NCBI GenBank assembly: GCA_902786245.1
Contig: CADABS010000005.1
Coordinates: 1 to 64,000 of the forward strand
Source of the DNA: an uncultured Erysipelotrichaceae bacterium
GTDB taxonomy: Bacteria > Bacillota_I > Bacilli_A > Erysipelotrichales > Erysipelotrichaceae
Reading direction: 5' to 3'
DNA: 64,000 bases
How positions within the stretch are numbered: position 1 is the first letter of the stretch; every line of letters starts with the position of its first letter. A model generated the notes under the pieces. That model had not been told where the DNA came from and ran no database searches. It was given only the letters and a program-made list of their open reading frames with translations. Below, in pieces: positions 1 through 35,656 of the stretch. Position numbers and translations under genes: made by a program.

Positions 1-299
1 TGGCGTTCCGTGTCTTCCCGGAAAGAAGACAGTTTATAATTCATCTTCAGATCCGGTTTGTAATGCAGGATATAATGTGCGAGTTCGTGCCACAGCAGGA
101 ACTCAATGTATTTCGGGTCAGAATTGGGTTTAATAAAAACACCCTTACGAGTGCCGGTGCAGAGGATCATTGAATCACGGTTATGAGTGATCAGCAGCGG
201 CGTGTAATAGATTTCGATTTCAAGCATTTCATACAGTTCATAGATGCTCGATGACTTCAGATTTCTGACCCTCTCATAAATGGATTCAATTGTCGTCAT
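1..299 (-). CDS. ImmA/IrrE-type metallopeptidase, partial
   Basis: The gene runs leftward and is cut by the window edge, so only the N-terminal ~99 residues are visible. They include the zinc-peptidase signature HELAH in the context LLWHELAHYIL, typical of ImmA/IrrE proteins. In known phages and ICEs these cleave the neighbouring CI/ImmR-type repressor to trigger induction. Here the gene sits 13 bases downstream of the repressor gene on the same strand, which fits that pairing. The start is the ATG at 297-299. The role as anti-repressor is inferred from family and context. Confidence 0.85.
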   Translation of the reverse strand, partial: MTTIESIYERVRNLKSSSIYELYEMLEIEIYYTPLLITHNRDSMILCTGTRKGVFIKPNSDPKYIEFLLWHELAHYILHYKPDLKMNYKLSSFREDTER

Positions 300-13265: not shown

Positions 13266-14516
13266 ATGGCAGAATACAAAGGCATCGATTATCTCAGACG
13301 GAAGCTTTCACAGAAGCGCTCAAGGGTACTTCTGCGTTACAAGTACTATGAAATGAAGGACATTGACCTGTCCAAGGGCATCACGATTCCGGCATCGCTC
13401 CGGTCCCAGTTCAGATCTGTTTTCGGCTGGTGTGCAAAGTCGGTGGACAGTCTGGCAGACAGGCTGCAGCTGCGCGGATTTGCGGATGATAACTTTGACA
13501 TCATGGAAATATTCAACATGAATAATCCGGATGTCCTTTTTGATTCTGCAATACTGGGCGCTTTGATTTCGTCCTGTGACTTTATCTATATTTCCGCTGA
13601 TGAAGATGGTTATCCAAGATTGCAGGTCATCGATGGTGCCAATGCGACCGGTATCATAGATCCGTTCACGAACATGCTGACGGAAGGATATGCTGTCCTG
13701 GAAAGAGATGATCATAACCAACCGACTATTGAAGCGTATTTCACTGCCGGAGAAACGCAGTATTACTACAAAGGCGATCCGGATATTCAGACGATTGAAA
13801 ACAAAGCACCATATCCGTTACTGGTGCCAATCATTTACAGACCGGACGCAAAAAGACCGTTCGGTCATTCCCGGATATCCCGGTCCTGCATGTATCTGCA
13901 GAGAGCAGCAAAGAACACTATGGAAAGATCGGAGATCTCTGCTGAGTTCTACTCCTTCCCGCAGAAATATGTCCTCGGTCTGAGTTCAGATGCCGAGAGT
14001 TTCGACACCTGGCAGGCAACGATTTCCAGCATGCTCGACTTCCGTTATGACGAAGAGAATGGCAACACACCATCTGTCGGACAGTTTACGCAGCAGTCTA
14101 TGTCACCATACACAGAGCAGCTCCGAACGATTGCATCAGTCTTCGCAGGAGAAACGGGACTGACATTGGATGATCTGGGCTTCGTATCTCAGAATCCAAG
14201 CTCTGCAGAGGCTATAAAGGCTTCTCACGAAGGCCTGCGTCTTACAGCCAGGAAAGCACAGAGAACATTCGGGTCAGGTTTTCTGAATGCCGGTTATCTT
14301 GCAGCGTGTATCCGAGATGATTTTTCCTATCTCAGAAGACAGGTTTATCTGACCAGGGCGTTATGGGAACCAATCTTCGAACCGGACATGGCAGCACTCG
14401 GTATGATCGGCGATGGTGTCGGCAAAATCAACACAGCTGTGCCCGGATATTTCACTGAAGAGAACCTCAGGGATCTGACCGGAATACCCAGTGCAAAGAC
14501 TGAAGAGGAATTCTGA
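13266..14516 (+). CDS. Phage portal protein
   Basis: 416 residues. Features of the portal family are visible: an N-terminal helical region, the 'YRPDAKRPFGHSRISRSCMYLQRAA' stretch near the middle, and 'FVSQNPSSAEAIKASHEGLRLTARKAQRTFGSGF' toward the C-terminus, as in SPP1/Gp6-type portals of Firmicutes siphophages. The dodecameric portal is the DNA entry channel of the head. The ATG at 13266 has ACAGGAGG upstream; the frame is open further upstream through the non-coding inverted repeat, which I do not regard as coding. It couples to the MuF gene (TGATG). Confidence 0.9.
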   Translation: MAEYKGIDYLRRKLSQKRSRVLLRYKYYEMKDIDLSKGITIPASLRSQFRSVFGWCAKSVDSLADRLQLRGFADDNFDIMEIFNMNNPDVLFDSAILGALISSCDFIYISADEDGYPRLQVIDGANATGIIDPFTNMLTEGYAVLERDDHNQPTIEAYFTAGETQYYYKGDPDIQTIENKAPYPLLVPIIYRPDAKRPFGHSRISRSCMYLQRAAKNTMERSEISAEFYSFPQKYVLGLSSDAESFDTWQATISSMLDFRYDEENGNTPSVGQFTQQSMSPYTEQLRTIASVFAGETGLTLDDLGFVSQNPSSAEAIKASHEGLRLTARKAQRTFGSGFLNAGYLAACIRDDFSYLRRQVYLTRALWEPIFEPDMAALGMIGDGVGKINTAVPGYFTEENLRDLTGIPSAKTEEEF

Positions 14517-15568
14517 TGGCGATACCGGCAGAAACGCTGCAGACAATGCAGGAACAGTTTCAGAATCAGGTCAAAACAGACGGGCAACTGAACAGGATCA
14601 GGAAAAAGATCCAGAACGGAGGAACATTCAAAGATGCCGAGCAGTACGGGATGCGCAGCGGTCAGCTGCTGTCAAAGACGCTCAAAACGAACATTACTGC
14701 TGATCTATTCAATGATGGAGAGTCCTTAGACGTCAGCAATCTGGCATCTGCCATCATACCGATGATGGAACAGAACTATAGCTATGTCTCCACAGCGACT
14801 GCGGCGGTTCAGAAGGCTGCTAACATTGCCGGCGGTCTCGGTATGAATCCTGTTAAGCCGGAGTTTGACCGAAGCGCTGCAATGAACATCGTCGGCAGAA
14901 TGGCAAACTATGATTCATTTGAGGATGCAGAATGGATGCTGGATGAACCGCTGGTGGCCAACTCTGTCAGCACGGTCGACAGAACCCTGCATGATAACGC
15001 TGATTTCCAGTACAGATCTGGATTGAAACCTAAGATCATCCGAACCTGTGAAGCAGATGCATGTCCGTGGTGCCAGGAACTTGAAGGCGAATACGACTAC
15101 GAAGAAGTCAAAGAAGGAAACAGTCCTGTATACCAGAGACATAGCAACTGTATGTGCGAAGTCACGTTTGAACCAGGTGATGGAAGAGTGCAGGATGTGT
15201 ATTCAAAACAGTGGTATGACGAGGATAATCAAACAAAGAGAATCAGCTTTGCAAGGAAGCAAGAATTAAACGCTTCACGTCAAGAAACGGTCGGTTTGGA
15301 AAACCGAAGAATATTGGCATCAAGGAAGACGGATCATATAAAAGAACGGCAGAAAAAGAAAGACAGAAACATCTCTGATCAAGCAATCAATAGTGTCATA
15401 AAACATCCATTACACAAAACGGGTGTTCTTATTGACGAAAAGGGTCGGCCTTACGTACAATATATAGGAAACAAAGTGACTGTTGTCATTAATCCGGATA
15501 GTGGAGCACAGATAACTGTAAGACGTACAACAAAGTACGAACGAGAAAAATGGAAAAAGAAAAAATAG
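14516..15568 (+). CDS. MuF-type minor head protein with C-terminal nuclease-toxin-like domain
   Basis: 350 residues. Residues ~170-225 are the MuF head-morphogenesis signature (CPWCQELEGEYDYEEV... YQRHSNCMCEVTFEPGDG). A linker is followed by residues ~270-350, 'TDHIKERQKKKDRNISDQAINSVIKHPL... PYVQYIGNKVTVVINPDSGAQITVRRT', which resembles BECR-fold RNase domains (DUF4258/BrnT/PBECR-like: His, then Arg, then a final Thr-containing strand). MuF proteins carrying exchangeable toxin tips are an established class in temperate phages. A small acidic gene overlaps its end, as expected for an immunity partner. Nuclease activity is inferred. Confidence 0.75.
   Translation: MAIPAETLQTMQEQFQNQVKTDGQLNRIRKKIQNGGTFKDAEQYGMRSGQLLSKTLKTNITADLFNDGESLDVSNLASAIIPMMEQNYSYVSTATAAVQKAANIAGGLGMNPVKPEFDRSAAMNIVGRMANYDSFEDAEWMLDEPLVANSVSTVDRTLHDNADFQYRSGLKPKIIRTCEADACPWCQELEGEYDYEEVKEGNSPVYQRHSNCMCEVTFEPGDGRVQDVYSKQWYDEDNQTKRISFARKQELNASRQETVGLENRRILASRKTDHIKERQKKKDRNISDQAINSVIKHPLHKTGVLIDEKGRPYVQYIGNKVTVVINPDSGAQITVRRTTKYEREKWKKKK
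15432..15461 (+). promoter_or_regulatory. Internal promoter for the putative immunity gene
   Basis: TTGACG (15432-15437), 18-base spacer, TACAAT (15456-15461), inside the toxin-tip coding region and about 90 bases before the next gene. It would let the immunity gene be expressed in the lysogen, when late genes are silent. Based on consensus match only. Confidence 0.45.
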
Positions 15569-15753
15569 GGTTTACAAAAGAGCAGCGCATATTTATGGAA
15601 GAAAATAATATTGATTCTGATAATCTTGTCCAGGTATTCGAAAAAACAGATGAAATGCTAATAAAAAAGGGTTTTGATGAAAACTATAATCCAACAGAGA
15701 TTGGTGTGATGTGCGAATCAATACTTGACACATTGGTAGATATGGGGTTTTAA
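15550..15753 (+). CDS. Putative immunity protein for the MuF toxin tip
   Basis: 67 residues, acidic and AT-rich (MEKEKIGFTKEQRIFMEENN... GFDENYNPTEIGVMCESILDTLVDMGF). It overlaps the MuF gene by 19 bases and is absent from normal head modules. The 'G-D-x2-Y-P-T-x-x-G-x2-x-E-x-I-L-D' ending recalls small immunity proteins. With an internal promoter before it and a terminator directly after, it forms its own small unit. Immunity function is inferred from position, size and charge. The ribosome site is weak (GAACGAG). Confidence 0.6.
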   Translation: MEKEKIGFTKEQRIFMEENNIDSDNLVQVFEKTDEMLIKKGFDENYNPTEIGVMCESILDTLVDMGF

Positions 15754-30425: not shown

Positions 30426-30445
30426 TCTGCCAAGCGGCACCATCA
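30426..30445. repeat. Direct repeat B, left copy (possible attachment core)
   Basis: TCTGCCAAGCGGCACCATCA matches 19 of 20 bases at 33893-33912. Each copy lies just before a hairpin built on AACCGCA/TGCGGTT. The pair brackets the four-gene AT-rich cassette and the two A repeats, so it may be an att core at each end. Function inferred. Confidence 0.5.
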
Positions 30446-30452
30446 GTCAAAG

Positions 30453-30477
30453 AAACCGCATAAATATGCGGTTTTTT
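30453..30477. terminator. Bidirectional terminator-like hairpin
   Basis: AAACCGCA (30453-30460) pairs with TGCGGTTT (30467-30474) around TAAATA, with a T-run to 30477 on the plus strand and A-rich sequence on the other side. It lies between the phage lysis module and the cassette, and would stop leftward transcripts of the cassette as well. Confidence 0.6.
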
Positions 30478-30495
30478 CAATGCCTATGTATTCAG

Positions 30496-30528
30496 ATGGG
30501 TCAATTTTGGGTCATTTTTTCAAAAATA
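30496..30528. repeat. Direct repeat A, left copy (possible integrase arm sites)
   Basis: Two tandem GGGTCA-type elements (GGGTCAATTTT then GGGTCATTTTTT, 30498-30520), followed by CAAAAAT. A near-identical arrangement in the same orientation lies at 33757-33790. Tandem short repeats just inside an att core are typical of arm-type integrase sites, which is the reading I favour. Confidence 0.45.
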
Positions 30529-30632: not shown

Positions 30633-31346
30633 CTATGAAATCTGCGGATATATAACAATCCATAGATCAATAATGCTTTCGCCATCAAAGATAGGTGCTT
30701 CTATCGCTTCTTCGAGAGAGTCGAATGCAAACTCATCTATACCGTTTGTTATTAGAGTAATATCTTCAAAGGGACAAATCGCACAATGCCGTCCATCAAC
30801 ATAAAACTCTTCATCTGTGCATATGAAGTCGCATATTTCTTGTTTTGTCATTTTCGGCAAATTTGTCAAATGTTGCCCGTGAACATCTTCACCATCCAAA
30901 GGTTTAAGCCTAAGAGGTAATATGTAATCGTTTTGATCGCTGTAATCCGTTTTGATGGTGACCATTGCAATTTCGCTTACCTGAAATCGAAAACCATCTT
31001 TGTCATAAAGAATATCCATCAACTTAATATTAGAGTATCCTTCCTTCCATTCCAAAAGATATAGCTTTTTTCCGGCAACCATATATTCATCAAGTATTTT
31101 TAATAAAAACACTCTTTCCTGCATTGTAAATCCAATTGTTTGGCCAATCAATTCTTCCGGATCTCTAGGAAATTGAATGGATACAAACTCCGTCGGCTGG
31201 ATCCAAGTAATTGGATAACTTCCAGAATTACAGACTAAAAACTTGGCGCTTAAATCCTCTACATCTCTTTTTTTGTCCAAAGCGATTACGGTCTGATTCT
31301 TAATCCTGAAGGCATCGATCACTTTATATCTCATATCATCGATCAT
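30633..31346 (-). CDS. Unrecognised cassette protein 4
   Basis: 237 residues, soluble, slightly acidic, AT-rich coding sequence unlike the phage genes to the left. The body contains 'EELIGQTIGFTMQERVFLLKILDEYMVAGKKLYLLEWKEG' and a C-terminal Cys pair (HCAICPFED). No known family recognised. Last gene of a leftward four-gene run; it overlaps the gene before it by four bases, so the run is an operon. Possible lysogenic-conversion or defence role. Confidence 0.65.
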   Translation of the reverse strand: MIDDMRYKVIDAFRIKNQTVIALDKKRDVEDLSAKFLVCNSGSYPITWIQPTEFVSIQFPRDPEELIGQTIGFTMQERVFLLKILDEYMVAGKKLYLLEWKEGYSNIKLMDILYDKDGFRFQVSEIAMVTIKTDYSDQNDYILPLRLKPLDGEDVHGQHLTNLPKMTKQEICDFICTDEEFYVDGRHCAICPFEDITLITNGIDEFAFDSLEEAIEAPIFDGESIIDLWIVIYPQIS

Positions 31347-31975
31347 ATCAACTCGCCACTCTCTTTATAACTCAAAGTAAAACTTGTAAGGATTCGGATT
31401 AGTGTACTATCACCGGAAACTCCATACTGTGTAACTAACGGATAACCGTCATCACTTATCAATGCAACACTAAAATGCGACTTTACATTTCGGTCAAAAT
31501 CCATATATGTCTGCTCTTCAAAAATGTTTTCATATTCATATTTCATCTGACGAAGAGTCTGTTTTAGCATATTATACTGATCATGATTCAGATTAAAACC
31601 CTGGCATGTAAAGCGTTCATCGGTATCTACCCATACCCCCAACTCCTTCGAAATCATATTCAAATCATAACTGACGTTTGAATGCTTAATACTGTTTATG
31701 TTAATTACCACACGCACATAGTAGTCATGTCCGTTCTGCTCCAAGGTCTTATGATTTACGCTGTCATCCGAAAAGCTTTTCCCGCATTTTGTACAGGACC
31801 ACTGGTCGAGAACAGGGGGAATCAGGCACCTGCCAAAAACAACCCTTCTCCCTTGCCGGATCATTTCCCATATTGAATGTCTATTTGAAAAGTGTCCATA
31901 TATCAGTTCGGCTGTCTCTTCAGAACCACAGTATGGACATTTAGGGTAACTGATTTTATGAATATACTGTTTCAT
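31343..31975 (-). CDS. Unrecognised zinc-ribbon cassette protein 3
   Basis: 210 residues from MKQYIHKISYPKCPYCGS. Two Cys pairs (CPYC near residue 13 and CTKCGKSF near residue 54) form a probable zinc ribbon. The rest is alpha/beta with 'VRVVININSIKHSNVSYDLNMISKELG' and 'LNHDQYNMLKQTLRQMKYEYENIFEEQ'. The start at 31975 is chosen because it gives a 20-base overlap with the upstream gene and the ribbon begins there. It recalls its neighbour at 32786, which also has an N-terminal ribbon. Confidence 0.65.
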   Translation of the reverse strand: MKQYIHKISYPKCPYCGSEETAELIYGHFSNRHSIWEMIRQGRRVVFGRCLIPPVLDQWSCTKCGKSFSDDSVNHKTLEQNGHDYYVRVVININSIKHSNVSYDLNMISKELGVWVDTDERFTCQGFNLNHDQYNMLKQTLRQMKYEYENIFEEQTYMDFDRNVKSHFSVALISDDGYPLVTQYGVSGDSTLIRILTSFTLSYKESGELI

Positions 31976-32756
31976 AGCATTGTAAACTCCGCAATTGCGG
32001 CAAGGACATAATCTCGTTAATGACAGGATAGTTTGATTTCTCCTTAAAGTATTGTGCTGTACTGCGTGGATTTGTATTCTTTCCAAGCCATGCACATCCA
32101 AATTCTATGCGATAGCCATCCAAATAAACTCTGTCATCTTCATAATAGCCATAAGTGTCCTTATCCATATCACTGACACTATTAAAATAATCTCTCGCAA
32201 AGCTCTTTGCTTTTTCCAAAAGATTCGTTTCTATCCGGAATGTAACAATCGGATCAGGGAGTTTCCCGCAGAACATATGAAGGGATACATCGCCTGTTGG
32301 ATAAAGCTTCACAAAACTGTTCCTGCTTCCGGCATATTGTGAAACAATCATAAATATATCATCATCTGTAATCATGGCTTTATTATGCTTCCAGAGAGCA
32401 TCGGTCTCTTCTGCCAGTGAGATAATCAGTTCTTCTATTCGAAAGCCATCTCTGATCGGTACTGCAAGATATATTTCTTTTTTATACTTGTCAATGAGAT
32501 CTGCCATTTTCCATATTATCTTTTCGTTTGTCCACGAATCATCAAACTGTTCGATACCAATAACGATTGGCCCAAAATCTTTTTTGGAGGATAATTTCTC
32601 AAAAAACATCTGTTCATTTTGCAGTAGTTGCTTGACATTAAGCCTTCTGTAATCAGGGAATTCTTCCATACGGATCTTTATGCTGAACAGTAAATCAATC
32701 TCCTTTTTTACATGATCATCAATGAGTTTTATGGTGTTCTTCTCGTCAATCAGCAT
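31956..32756 (-). CDS. Unrecognised cassette protein 2
   Basis: 266 residues, soluble, no metal motif or signal. Segments include 'PDYRRLNVKQLLQNEQMFFEKL', 'FGPIVIGIEQFDDSWTNEKIIWKMADLIDKYKKEIYLAVPIRDGF' and 'DDDIFMIVSQYAGSRNSFVKLYPTGDVSLHMFCGKL'. Not recognised. Second gene of the leftward run, 29 bases after the first, overlapping the third. AT-rich, so probably acquired. Confidence 0.65.
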   Translation of the reverse strand: MLIDEKNTIKLIDDHVKKEIDLLFSIKIRMEEFPDYRRLNVKQLLQNEQMFFEKLSSKKDFGPIVIGIEQFDDSWTNEKIIWKMADLIDKYKKEIYLAVPIRDGFRIEELIISLAEETDALWKHNKAMITDDDIFMIVSQYAGSRNSFVKLYPTGDVSLHMFCGKLPDPIVTFRIETNLLEKAKSFARDYFNSVSDMDKDTYGYYEDDRVYLDGYRIEFGCAWLGKNTNPRSTAQYFKEKSNYPVINEIMSLPQLRSLQCYETVYS

Positions 32757-32785
32757 ATTTACCTCTATTCATACGCAATAACTTC

Positions 32786-33673
32786 CTAATAGTTAAAACT
32801 CTTAGAAGTATAGTGCCTGAACATGTTCCACACATCAGCAGACTCATCTTTTTCCAATCGATCAATCACTTCGTCACCTACCGCCTGTGCTATCAATTCC
32901 TCCCCATGATCCATAACATATTCAACGAATTCCGAATATTTTCTAAATAGTCCCATGTCGTTTTGCTCATACGACTTTATCATTGGTTGGAAGATACACG
33001 TAAACGCAAACCCATAGTGATCAAGACCATATACAGAAACATAGTTTTCATACAACTCTTTGTTTTCCGGAATGTGCTCACACAGCATTTTGTATACTTC
33101 GTTCAAATTGATTGTCTCGGGTTTAATGCGTTTCTCGTTCATCTGTGTATAACCTGCCTCATGCCGCAGTTCTTCCGGCAAGTACTTCCTCATACCTGAG
33201 TATGAATAATGACAATGCATATAATACTGATACTTATCCCGAGGATCCTGCGGATCAATAATCTTGCAGCAGATTTTATTAGCGTTTAATGCCTCTTTAA
33301 CTACATCCATTTTGTCTGGTTCAAGATATAAAATGCTCCCATCCATTAACATTGATCTCATTTGAAGACCAGTGACCTGAATTATTTTTGCAAGATGAAG
33401 TATTATTCTGTTACCTGGCATTTGCTTCTGGGGATCTATGACAAGTTTTGTGGATTCATAAAATATAGGATCACCTTCACAGGGGGTATTTAATTCAACA
33501 GAAGCCATTAGCCAGCACCTGGAGCACCTGACAAACAAGGAACCCCTACAGTTTTGTTTCCAATATAATGATTTATGCCCGCATTCAGGACATATCTCTG
33601 GTTCTGCCTGATTATGATGGATTTTATATACAATGCATTCTTCACAGCCATTTTGTTTTGGAAATCCGCTCAT
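32786..33673 (-). CDS. Unrecognised zinc-ribbon cassette protein 1, immunity-like C-terminus
   Basis: 295 residues starting MSGFPKQNGCEECIVYK. CEEC, CPECGH and CSRCW in the first 60 residues indicate two zinc knuckles. The middle (RIILHLAKIIQVTGLQMRSMLMDGSILYLEPDKMDVVKEALNA) has the form of an L7/L12-like alpha-beta unit. The last ~75 residues (LFRKYSEFVEYVMDHGEELIAQAVGDEVIDRLEKDESADVWNMFRHY) resemble helical immunity proteins of polymorphic-toxin systems. GGAGGGAACGAAA supports the ATG at 33673. First gene of the cassette operon. Confidence 0.65.
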   Translation of the reverse strand: MSGFPKQNGCEECIVYKIHHNQAEPEICPECGHKSLYWKQNCRGSLFVRCSRCWLMASVELNTPCEGDPIFYESTKLVIDPQKQMPGNRIILHLAKIIQVTGLQMRSMLMDGSILYLEPDKMDVVKEALNANKICCKIIDPQDPRDKYQYYMHCHYSYSGMRKYLPEELRHEAGYTQMNEKRIKPETINLNEVYKMLCEHIPENKELYENYVSVYGLDHYGFAFTCIFQPMIKSYEQNDMGLFRKYSEFVEYVMDHGEELIAQAVGDEVIDRLEKDESADVWNMFRHYTSKSFNY

Positions 33674-33756: not shown

Positions 33757-33790
33757 TTGGGTCATTTTTGGGTCAATTTTTTAAAAATGG
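33757..33790. repeat. Direct repeat A, right copy
   Basis: Tandem GGGTCATTTTT and GGGTCAATTTT (33759-33781) followed by TTAAAAAT repeats the 30496 site in the same orientation, with the two sub-elements in swapped order. It lies between the promoter side of the cassette and repeat B. Otherwise the stretch 33674-33943 holds no gene. Confidence 0.45.
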
Positions 33791-33892
33791 AAGATCCGAA
33801 TAGAGACGCATATTCCCTTTTAAAGCTTCACAAGACCGTATAAGAATTCTAAAAGCATACATTAGTACTATGTAAGAGTACTTGTGTGACGG

Positions 33893-33912
33893 TCTGCCAA
33901 GTGGCACCATCA
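33893..33912. repeat. Direct repeat B, right copy (possible attR)
   Basis: TCTGCCAAGTGGCACCATCA, one base different from 30426-30445; this copy has the perfect internal inverted repeat TGCCA-AG-TGGCA. It sits at the junction with clear host genes, directly beside the terminator of the next leftward host gene, a common prophage insertion point. Confidence 0.5.
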
Positions 33913-33943: not shown

Positions 33944-35656
33944 CTACAGAGAACTCTGCCGGATGAGCCTGCGGGCATATTCATGGAAAGCCTCTACCAG
34001 CAGAGGATGCGATACTTCAAAACTGATCGGAGAATCACCGGTATAGATGATCTGCACGAAATGACCGCAGATCAGGATCCGGATGTTATCGAAGGTATTC
34101 TGCTGCAGAGGGATAAACCGGTAATCCGGGTTTTCTTTCTGCAGTGAGCGGATGGCCTGTACATGGGCTCTGTACTGTTCCGGTGTATAGAACAGCTGCG
34201 TACCGCCGGGCAGTTTTTCCGCCGGTATCTGTGCAGGCAGATCCTCATGCAGAGGCATACATTCGGTAATTCTGCCGGTGCGCAGAAGTTCCAGGAAGCT
34301 GACATGCATGTTTTTCCAGTATTCATACAGCTGCGGGGACTGAAACTCTGCCGCGAGTTCTTCCGGCATGGTCGCAATGGATAACGTATTCTGGATCAGC
34401 GTGCATCCCGAGGCTTCCGGCAGGGACAGAGACGGATTCATCCGCACAAGCATCCTTGCCTGCTGCAGAAGCGACTGGTATTCAAATACACACTGGTTCA
34501 GTTCTTCCGTGCCGGTGACGTAATTGTACAGTCCGTGCGATTCCGCACCGGCTGTATGAAAAGCCCTGATACAGGATGATTCCGGATTGAGAAAGAAGGT
34601 ATGCGAAAAGCGGGCATCTCTCTGCTTCAGGCTGTAGTACGACTCCAGCATGCCTGTCATATACAGCGGTATCCAGCCTTTGAGGGCAGAAATCATTTCA
34701 TCCGGTTCTCTGGCGATGTTATGAATGACCGTAATGTGCGTGCCCCCGGCAGCGCACAGATACATCAATGCCGACCATTGCCTAAAGAATCCTGCATCTT
34801 CTGTCATCCACTGCATATTCTGATCGGAATACAGGTACAGATGACCGGCATGATTCTGCGCTGCTTCACTGAGAAAGCGCAGAACAGCTTCGCGCAGTCC
34901 TTCATTTCCGGTATATCTTTCTTTTTTTTCAAAGTTTCCGGCTGCGGGAAGAAATCCTGCAGGAAATGCGGTGGGAGCTGCGGGAGGACGGTACCGGTCT
35001 ACTGCTTCCAGCAGGGACTGGGCAGAGCGGATCGCCGGCAGGTACTGGTCTTCGCTTTCCAGCAGCCAGACCGTAAACACGTCTTCATCGATTTCATCCG
35101 CCGCAATATGCATGATGCGGCCGAGTTCATCTCTGCGGTTATAATGCATGGTCAGATCCCACAGCTGTGCGCATATTCTTTCTGCCGCAGGAGATCCGGC
35201 CTGGGGAATGCGGGTACCTTTCCGGTAGCGGCTGATCAAAGAAGAATCGACATACAGAAGCCGGCCCAGTTTTGCATTGGAAAGATCGAGCATCGTCATG
35301 ACTTCATCCAGTTTCCGGCTGAAGGATTTCAGTTTTTTCTTTTTCTTTGTTTCCGGCATTTCCTTTGCGGGTTCATCGGAAAAGAGCCATGTATGCAGTG
35401 CATTCTGTATCTGTGCGTCTTCTGCTTCAGAATCTGCTCCGCACAGGGCACACAGCTGGGCCATGGTTTCATTTCTGCGGGCACAGAGCAGAATACCCTG
35501 CACGAGCTTTGCGGCAGAAGAACCGTTCTGCTTCGGTACCCGTGAGCCGGTGCGGAAGCGGCTGATGCCGGTACGGTCCAGTCCGGCGGCTTCTGCCAGA
35601 GTACTGTCGCCGGTACCGGTGCCTTTCATGATCTGATCGAGTTTCTGAGAAAACAT
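33944..35656 (-). CDS. Large regulator with two tandem HTH domains
   Basis: 570 residues. Residues ~1-45 (KLDQIMKGTGTGDSTLAEAAGLDRTGISRFRTGSRVPK) and ~112-155 (KLDEVMTMLDLSNAKLGRLLYVDSSLISRYRKGTRIPQ) are two copies of an XRE-like helix-turn-helix sharing KLDxxM, 'S.L/K', 'ISR(F/Y)R.G(S/T)R(V/I)P'. The 400-residue remainder is a probable sensor or signal domain and is not recognised. It is divergent from the membrane-protein cluster at 35777 and may control it. No membrane segment. Confidence 0.65.
   Translation of the reverse strand: MFSQKLDQIMKGTGTGDSTLAEAAGLDRTGISRFRTGSRVPKQNGSSAAKLVQGILLCARRNETMAQLCALCGADSEAEDAQIQNALHTWLFSDEPAKEMPETKKKKKLKSFSRKLDEVMTMLDLSNAKLGRLLYVDSSLISRYRKGTRIPQAGSPAAERICAQLWDLTMHYNRRDELGRIMHIAADEIDEDVFTVWLLESEDQYLPAIRSAQSLLEAVDRYRPPAAPTAFPAGFLPAAGNFEKKERYTGNEGLREAVLRFLSEAAQNHAGHLYLYSDQNMQWMTEDAGFFRQWSALMYLCAAGGTHITVIHNIAREPDEMISALKGWIPLYMTGMLESYYSLKQRDARFSHTFFLNPESSCIRAFHTAGAESHGLYNYVTGTEELNQCVFEYQSLLQQARMLVRMNPSLSLPEASGCTLIQNTLSIATMPEELAAEFQSPQLYEYWKNMHVSFLELLRTGRITECMPLHEDLPAQIPAEKLPGGTQLFYTPEQYRAHVQAIRSLQKENPDYRFIPLQQNTFDNIRILICGHFVQIIYTGDSPISFEVSHPLLVEAFHEYARRLIRQSSL

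Follow-up and report, generated by a model that had tools for sequence, protein, structure and literature searches.

An integrase-less, CIME-like element with a putative orphan immunity cargo adjoins a prophage at tRNA-Thr(GGT) in a Solobacterium genome

The four leftward genes at positions 30633-33673 of the window (the whole 64,000-nt stretch of DNA that was analyzed, bases 1-64000 of the 73.7-kb contig C5 in the 2.75-Mb draft genome of a gut bacterium of the genus Solobacterium) probably form the orphan polyimmunity cargo of a CIME-like element at the 3′ end of tRNA-Thr(GGT), beside which a prophage inserted later. An initial annotation of the same DNA had assigned them to the prophage, as a four-gene lysogenic-conversion cassette and the candidate for an undescribed defense, exclusion or immunity system. 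The domains of the encoded proteins, the ends of the element and the extent of the prophage each bear on the choice between these readings.

The region is filled by four open reading frames, here called A to D (295, 266, about 210 and 237 aa), as follows:

33673-32786, minus strand: gene A, 295 aa, with an N-terminal zinc ribbon and a DUF7674-like domain at residues 196-292
32756-31956, minus strand: gene B, 266 aa, without a relative in any search
31975-31343, minus strand: gene C, 210 aa, with its start ATG at 31975, an N-terminal zinc ribbon and a C-terminal domain without a family
31346-30633, minus strand: gene D, 237 aa, with two putative immunity-slot domains at residues 5-73 and 166-237

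Three of these frames exceed what shuffled sequence yields. In 300 dinucleotide shuffles of the cassette region the longest open frame had 210 codons (mean 110), so that three frames of 237-295 codons within one short stretch are not a product of chance and the genes are real. Their description as overlapping holds for B and C (20 bp) and for C and D (4 bp, ATGA) but not for A and B, which lie 29 bp apart. The distinctly lower GC content was also confirmed: the cassette has 37.7%, the phage 48.8% and the host 52.7%. The composition is foreign, and the genes are not part of the prophage. A promoter search of the cassette gave no candidate above chance level.

Gene D has relatives of both its ends in a MuF-type slot, in two different phages, and in both cases the minor head protein belongs to phrog_2494, the family that also includes the minor head protein of the window prophage (14516-15568). 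In particular, the last 72 residues of D (166-237) match phrog_27650 with an E-value of 1e-9 and are about 36% identical to a 70-aa gene of Streptococcus suis phages, while a profile built from two S. suis phage proteins recovers D with an E-value of 2.6e-14; the 70-aa gene overlaps the end of a tailed phrog_2494 minor head protein gene, and the terminase comes next. Residues 5-73, in turn, are 31% identical (E = 1e-9) to a stand-alone 71-aa gene in a Solobacterium prophage of genome G048, where it sits between the gene of a variable-tailed phrog_2494 minor head protein, which precedes it, and the terminase, which follows. That prophage (L086/L087) is decayed and retains the D-like slot gene, a putative immunity gene; its portal and terminase share about 60% identity with those of the window prophage. 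The phrog_2494 head proteins considered here have weak matches to Pfam VG15, no Pfam Mu F match was obtained for them, and the toxin-like tails have no significant Pfam match, save a weak Ntox24-like one. Because D unites slot proteins of two different phages, it agrees with polyimmunity proteins as described (PMC3482391), and we propose that its two domains give polyimmunity against minor-head toxin tails (MuF-like; phrog_2494).

The C-terminal domain of D recurs in rows of small genes, both in the related genome L014, beside DUF7675, and in the Javan361 satellite phage of Streptococcus, beside a fragment that by eye resembles DUF7675; in genome G039 it forms an orphan gene. Further, the window prophage has a 67-aa gene of its own (15550-15753, phrog_7261) that overlaps its minor head gene with a variable tail; the two are probably the prophage's own head-toxin/immunity pair, distinct from D.

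Gene A provides a second domain of the immunity type. The initial annotation had noted one immunity-like C-terminus, which the phrog_27650 match bears out for D, and the C-terminus of A now joins it with a match to DUF7674 (E = 1.6e-5), whose 25.3 bits fall just under the curated cut-off of 27. A survey of DUF7674 across 295 genomes of the phylum shows three DUF7674 genes that directly follow one shared toxin-like tail gene (L018, L019 and L020), with a DUF4417 gene upstream in L019 and L020, and these modules are possibly a type of small toxin-immunity element. An L019 frame beside the DUF7674 gene resembles Ntox24, although its E-value of 1.1e-3 misses the curated cut-off, and it also resembles the tail of a head protein of S. 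suis phage phi891591 (pairwise E = 1e-5). A match between the second half of the L019 toxin-like frame and the C-terminal domain of D was tested and was not significant.

The two N-terminal zinc ribbons reported earlier are likewise present, as CxxC pairs in A and C with weak Pfam matches. The ribbon of C is common to small proteins of Ilyobacter, Solobacterium and others, and C and D are found elsewhere solely as separate domains. Searches of A to D against Pfam, NCBIfam, PADLOC, PHROGs and PDB sequences returned nothing beyond the leads for A, for D and for the ribbon of C; B matches no recognized family and C matches by its ribbon only. Full-length relatives are equally scarce: A turned up in none of the others among 316 genomes of the order, B turned up in none of the others among 273 genomes of the family and has no relative in any search, a scan of genome contigs gave none for C, and the phages, plasmids and viral contigs searched held none for any of the four. 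Since B has no relative and C a ribbon only, half of the cassette is assigned by association. Two further likenesses were set aside, namely that of the C-terminal domain of C to zinc-ribbon proteins of G022 and G054, where homology was tested and not supported, and that of the middle region of A to the C-terminal fold of ribosomal L7/L12, which was seen by eye and is not claimed. Single-sequence structure predictions of A and B reached pLDDT values of 41 and 43 and were unusable for fold searches.

These results bear directly on whether A to D could be a dedicated multi-subunit anti-phage defense, in which the four proteins cooperate, the zinc-ribbon proteins serve as sensors of nucleic acid or protein, and a mobile element carries the system at a defense hotspot. 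The compact, co-oriented operon would suit such a system, as would an Abi_2 (abortive-infection family) protein in a sister element at the same tRNA, but we consider it unlikely. PADLOC returned 0 matches for A to D, no enzymatic domain was found in them with Pfam, NCBIfam or PHROGs, and each half of D exists as a stand-alone gene in an immunity slot. Moreover, A to D were found together in no other genome searched, so that the whole cassette is known from one genome, and their domains recur apart; this distribution argues against one four-subunit defense machine. The earlier proposal is thus retained for immunity, through the domains of D and A, but not for an undescribed four-gene defense system, as the genes are not conserved together within the genomes searched, an outcome that the annotation itself had named as speaking against it. 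Independent antidotes explain the gene distribution better than subunits of one system do, and we infer the same for B and C. The nearest head protein with a tail lies 15 kb away, inside the prophage, and no toxin-domain frame was found between 30445 and 33893; the cargo is best read as a putative orphan immunity array, that is, antidote-type genes without toxins.

The array lies within an element that has ends of its own. The relevant features of the window, and the sister element in genome G033, are:

30426-30445, unstranded: att copy 1, a copy of the tRNA-Thr(GGT) 3′ end; prophage attR and left boundary of the cassette element
30460-30478, unstranded: hairpin CCGCAT-ATGCGG with a T run, within the conserved left end
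30497-30520, plus strand: left arm-like repeats GGGTCA with 11-bp spacing; the conserved left end reaches about 30549
33758-33781, plus strand: right arm-like repeats GGGTCA of the cassette element
33782-33892, unstranded: conserved right end, common to G017, G032, G033 and partly G075
33893-33912, unstranded: att copy 2, outer boundary of the element, with host DNA beyond
L061:12370-14824: G033 sister element, with conserved ends at tRNA-Thr(GGT), Abi_2 and HTH cargo, and without an integrase

The two att copies are instances of the 20-mer TCTGCCAAGyGGCACCATCA, the first part of which is the 3′ end of tRNA-Thr(GGT). Its 19-base core has exactly two copies genome-wide at up to 2 mismatches, where the chance expectation in the window is 0.00. 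Inside the att copies, each end of the cassette has two GGGTCA hexamers 11 bp apart. Within its own genome, at up to 2 mismatches, this arm pattern was found only at the two cassette ends, and it is therefore absent near all seven integrase genes found in the genome; the integrase search of the same genome placed none in the cassette. A short remnant of the C-terminal end of an integrase may persist at the left end, to judge from the sequence VFLKK* there as compared with the FLNNLKK* of the prophage integrase.

The same ends occur in related genomes around other genes. In the sister Solobacterium genome G033, the left end of the element comes immediately after an intact tRNA-Thr(ggt), with no prophage; this end is 94.5% identical to that of the cassette over 128 bp, versus 68% for the neighboring chromosome. 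About 2.4 kb past it come the right arms, the right end and an att copy, and the cargo in between consists of an Abi_2-family protein (9.1e-9) and an HTH regulator, unrelated to A to D, again without an integrase. The left end is present also in G046, the right end recurs in four other species (G017, G032, G033 and, partly, G075), and the host genes beside these ends differ among G046 on the left and G017, G032 and G075 on the right. Overall, these comparisons point to a CIME-like cassette element that lacks an integrase and whose ends are conserved while its cargo varies. In two additional genomes, G045 (L056) and G064 (L058), variant arms, TGGGACAATTTTGGGACA, come after tRNA-Thr(ggt), and the stretch examined contains no integrase; these are possible further relics at the same tRNA-Thr site.

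Alternatively, the cassette could be the decayed remnant of a larger integrated element, from which the integrase and core genes were deleted and whose cargo is unexpressed or useless. The missing integrase, the possible integrase stub at the left end, the lack of relatives and the lack of a clear promoter would all agree with decay. However, the four frames are intact and close-packed, and intact but different cargo is found in two complete elements whose left ends are nearly identical, which makes this explanation quite doubtful.

The extent of the prophage follows from a second contig. The tRNA-Thr(GGT) gene is located on contig C13, where it directly adjoins the tyrosine integrase of the prophage (Phage_integrase, 1.8e-18; Arm-DNA-bind_4, 1.1e-5), and galU-like and coaX-like genes lie upstream of it, as they do in G033. 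The end of C13 (L009) and the start of C5 (window positions 1-297) hold the two halves of one split ImmA/IrrE gene, in frame and with no base missing, and the contigs are probably adjacent. With the tRNA and the integrase on C13 and the in-frame join to C5, the prophage spans from the tRNA-Thr of C13 via the first base of C5 to 30426-30445. Its attR therefore lies on the holin side of the cassette, and the placement of the genes between holin and attR has to be revised: they are outside the prophage, between the two att copies. The prophage ends share the arm geometry of the cassette element, with the motif GGCTAC instead of GGGTCA. The cassette adjoins the lysis genes and runs in the opposite direction, but a moron or lysogenic-conversion cassette belonging to the prophage is highly improbable, because attR precedes the genes, which are thus not between attL and attR, the arm motifs differ, and G033 has the left end of the element without a prophage. 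Beyond the element, the host encodes a 570-aa protein (33944-35656) with HTH repeats near its N-terminus (phrog_8, 2.6e-6), which has homologues at 31-41% identity in about nine other Solobacterium species.

The position of the left end directly at tRNA-Thr in G033, where no prophage intervenes, supports an integrase-less CIME-like element beside which the prophage inserted later. The likely order of events is that the element occupied tRNA-Thr first and that a separate prophage with its own integrase then entered at the 3′ end of this tRNA and came to lie between the two. This order resembles the accretion scenario for CIMEs, the cis-mobilizable elements in tandem accretion that were described from ICE/IME families (PMC5704250). 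As in CIMEs, both att sites are kept, integration and transfer genes are absent, and the element stands in tandem with a second one, with different arm motifs, at a single tRNA-Thr target; unlike in CIMEs, the second element is a prophage, and the short cargo differs between sister elements whose ends are nearly identical (PMC5704250).

The cargo has its own precedents. Zhang et al. described heterogeneous polyimmunity loci and polyimmunity proteins in 2012 (PMC3482391), and the cassette is like these loci in its tandem, co-oriented immunity-type genes without toxins, its fusion of unrelated immunity domains and its lineage-variable content: there are four co-oriented genes, two slot domains in D, a DUF7674-like domain in A and no linked toxin gene. 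It differs in that its assignable domains are slot proteins of phage minor head tails (phrog_27650 and an unnamed family) and DUF7674, and in its location on an att-flanked tRNA-Thr element without a recombinase of its own. The rAID system shares with the cassette short, co-oriented orphan immunity genes of 100-300 codons, mobile DNA and low identity to cognate immunity proteins. In contrast to that system, the cassette has neither a linked tyrosine recombinase nor a repeated intergenic motif, for which the 29-bp gap between A and B and the overlaps of 20 and 4 bp leave no room; its host belongs to the Bacillota, and the relatives of D are genes beside phage head proteins rather than T6SS effectors. 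Finally, in the MuF polymorphic toxins of temperate phages the tails are proposed to enter with the phage genome, and 89.4% of MuF toxin genes have a small downstream gene proposed to confer immunity, compared with 25.5% of short MuF genes (PMC5576092). The gene order is the same here, in that a small gene of the immunity type comes after a minor head protein whose tail is toxin-like, and both domains of D occur in that slot, but the cassette represents the immunity side alone, as a fusion and apart from any toxin. Each of these four kinds of system, polyimmunity loci, rAID arrays, CIMEs and MuF toxins, is already described; what is new is the combination of an integrase-less tRNA element, whose ends are conserved and whose cargo differs, with an orphan immunity array and the fusion of two phage-head-toxin slot domains.

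A mechanism may be added to what was observed, namely the architecture of the att sites and the element, the homologues and genomic slots of the two D domains, and the relationship of A to DUF7674. The cargo proteins would act as cytoplasmic antidotes, each binding to, and occluding, the toxin domain of a single polymorphic toxin that enters the cell. D would target toxin tails on phage minor head proteins that enter with the phage genome, and the DUF7674 domain of A would neutralize the toxin family encoded ahead of DUF7674 genes elsewhere, with B and C as further antidotes in the same array. In consequence, the cell or its resident prophage would survive or outcompete others upon infection by tail-bearing phages. 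This mechanism presumes that the slot genes are antidotes, that the tails are toxic, that D neutralizes both toxins, that B and C act alike and that the cassette is expressed.

These findings imply that what appears to be a prophage end can belong to an element inserted earlier at that tRNA, and that integrase-less elements can retain near-identical ends around different defense or immunity cargo. They also yield a testable prediction on minor-head tails, namely that a cell can accumulate antidotes to tails from several phages and join them in a single protein. More speculatively, it is possible that non-autonomous tRNA-Thr cassettes with conserved ends spread in ruminant-gut Solobacterium, swapping Abi genes and orphan antidotes, and that the antidotes shield cells and resident prophages from head-injected toxins. 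If true, immunity to phage-borne toxins would be a mobile and accumulating trait.
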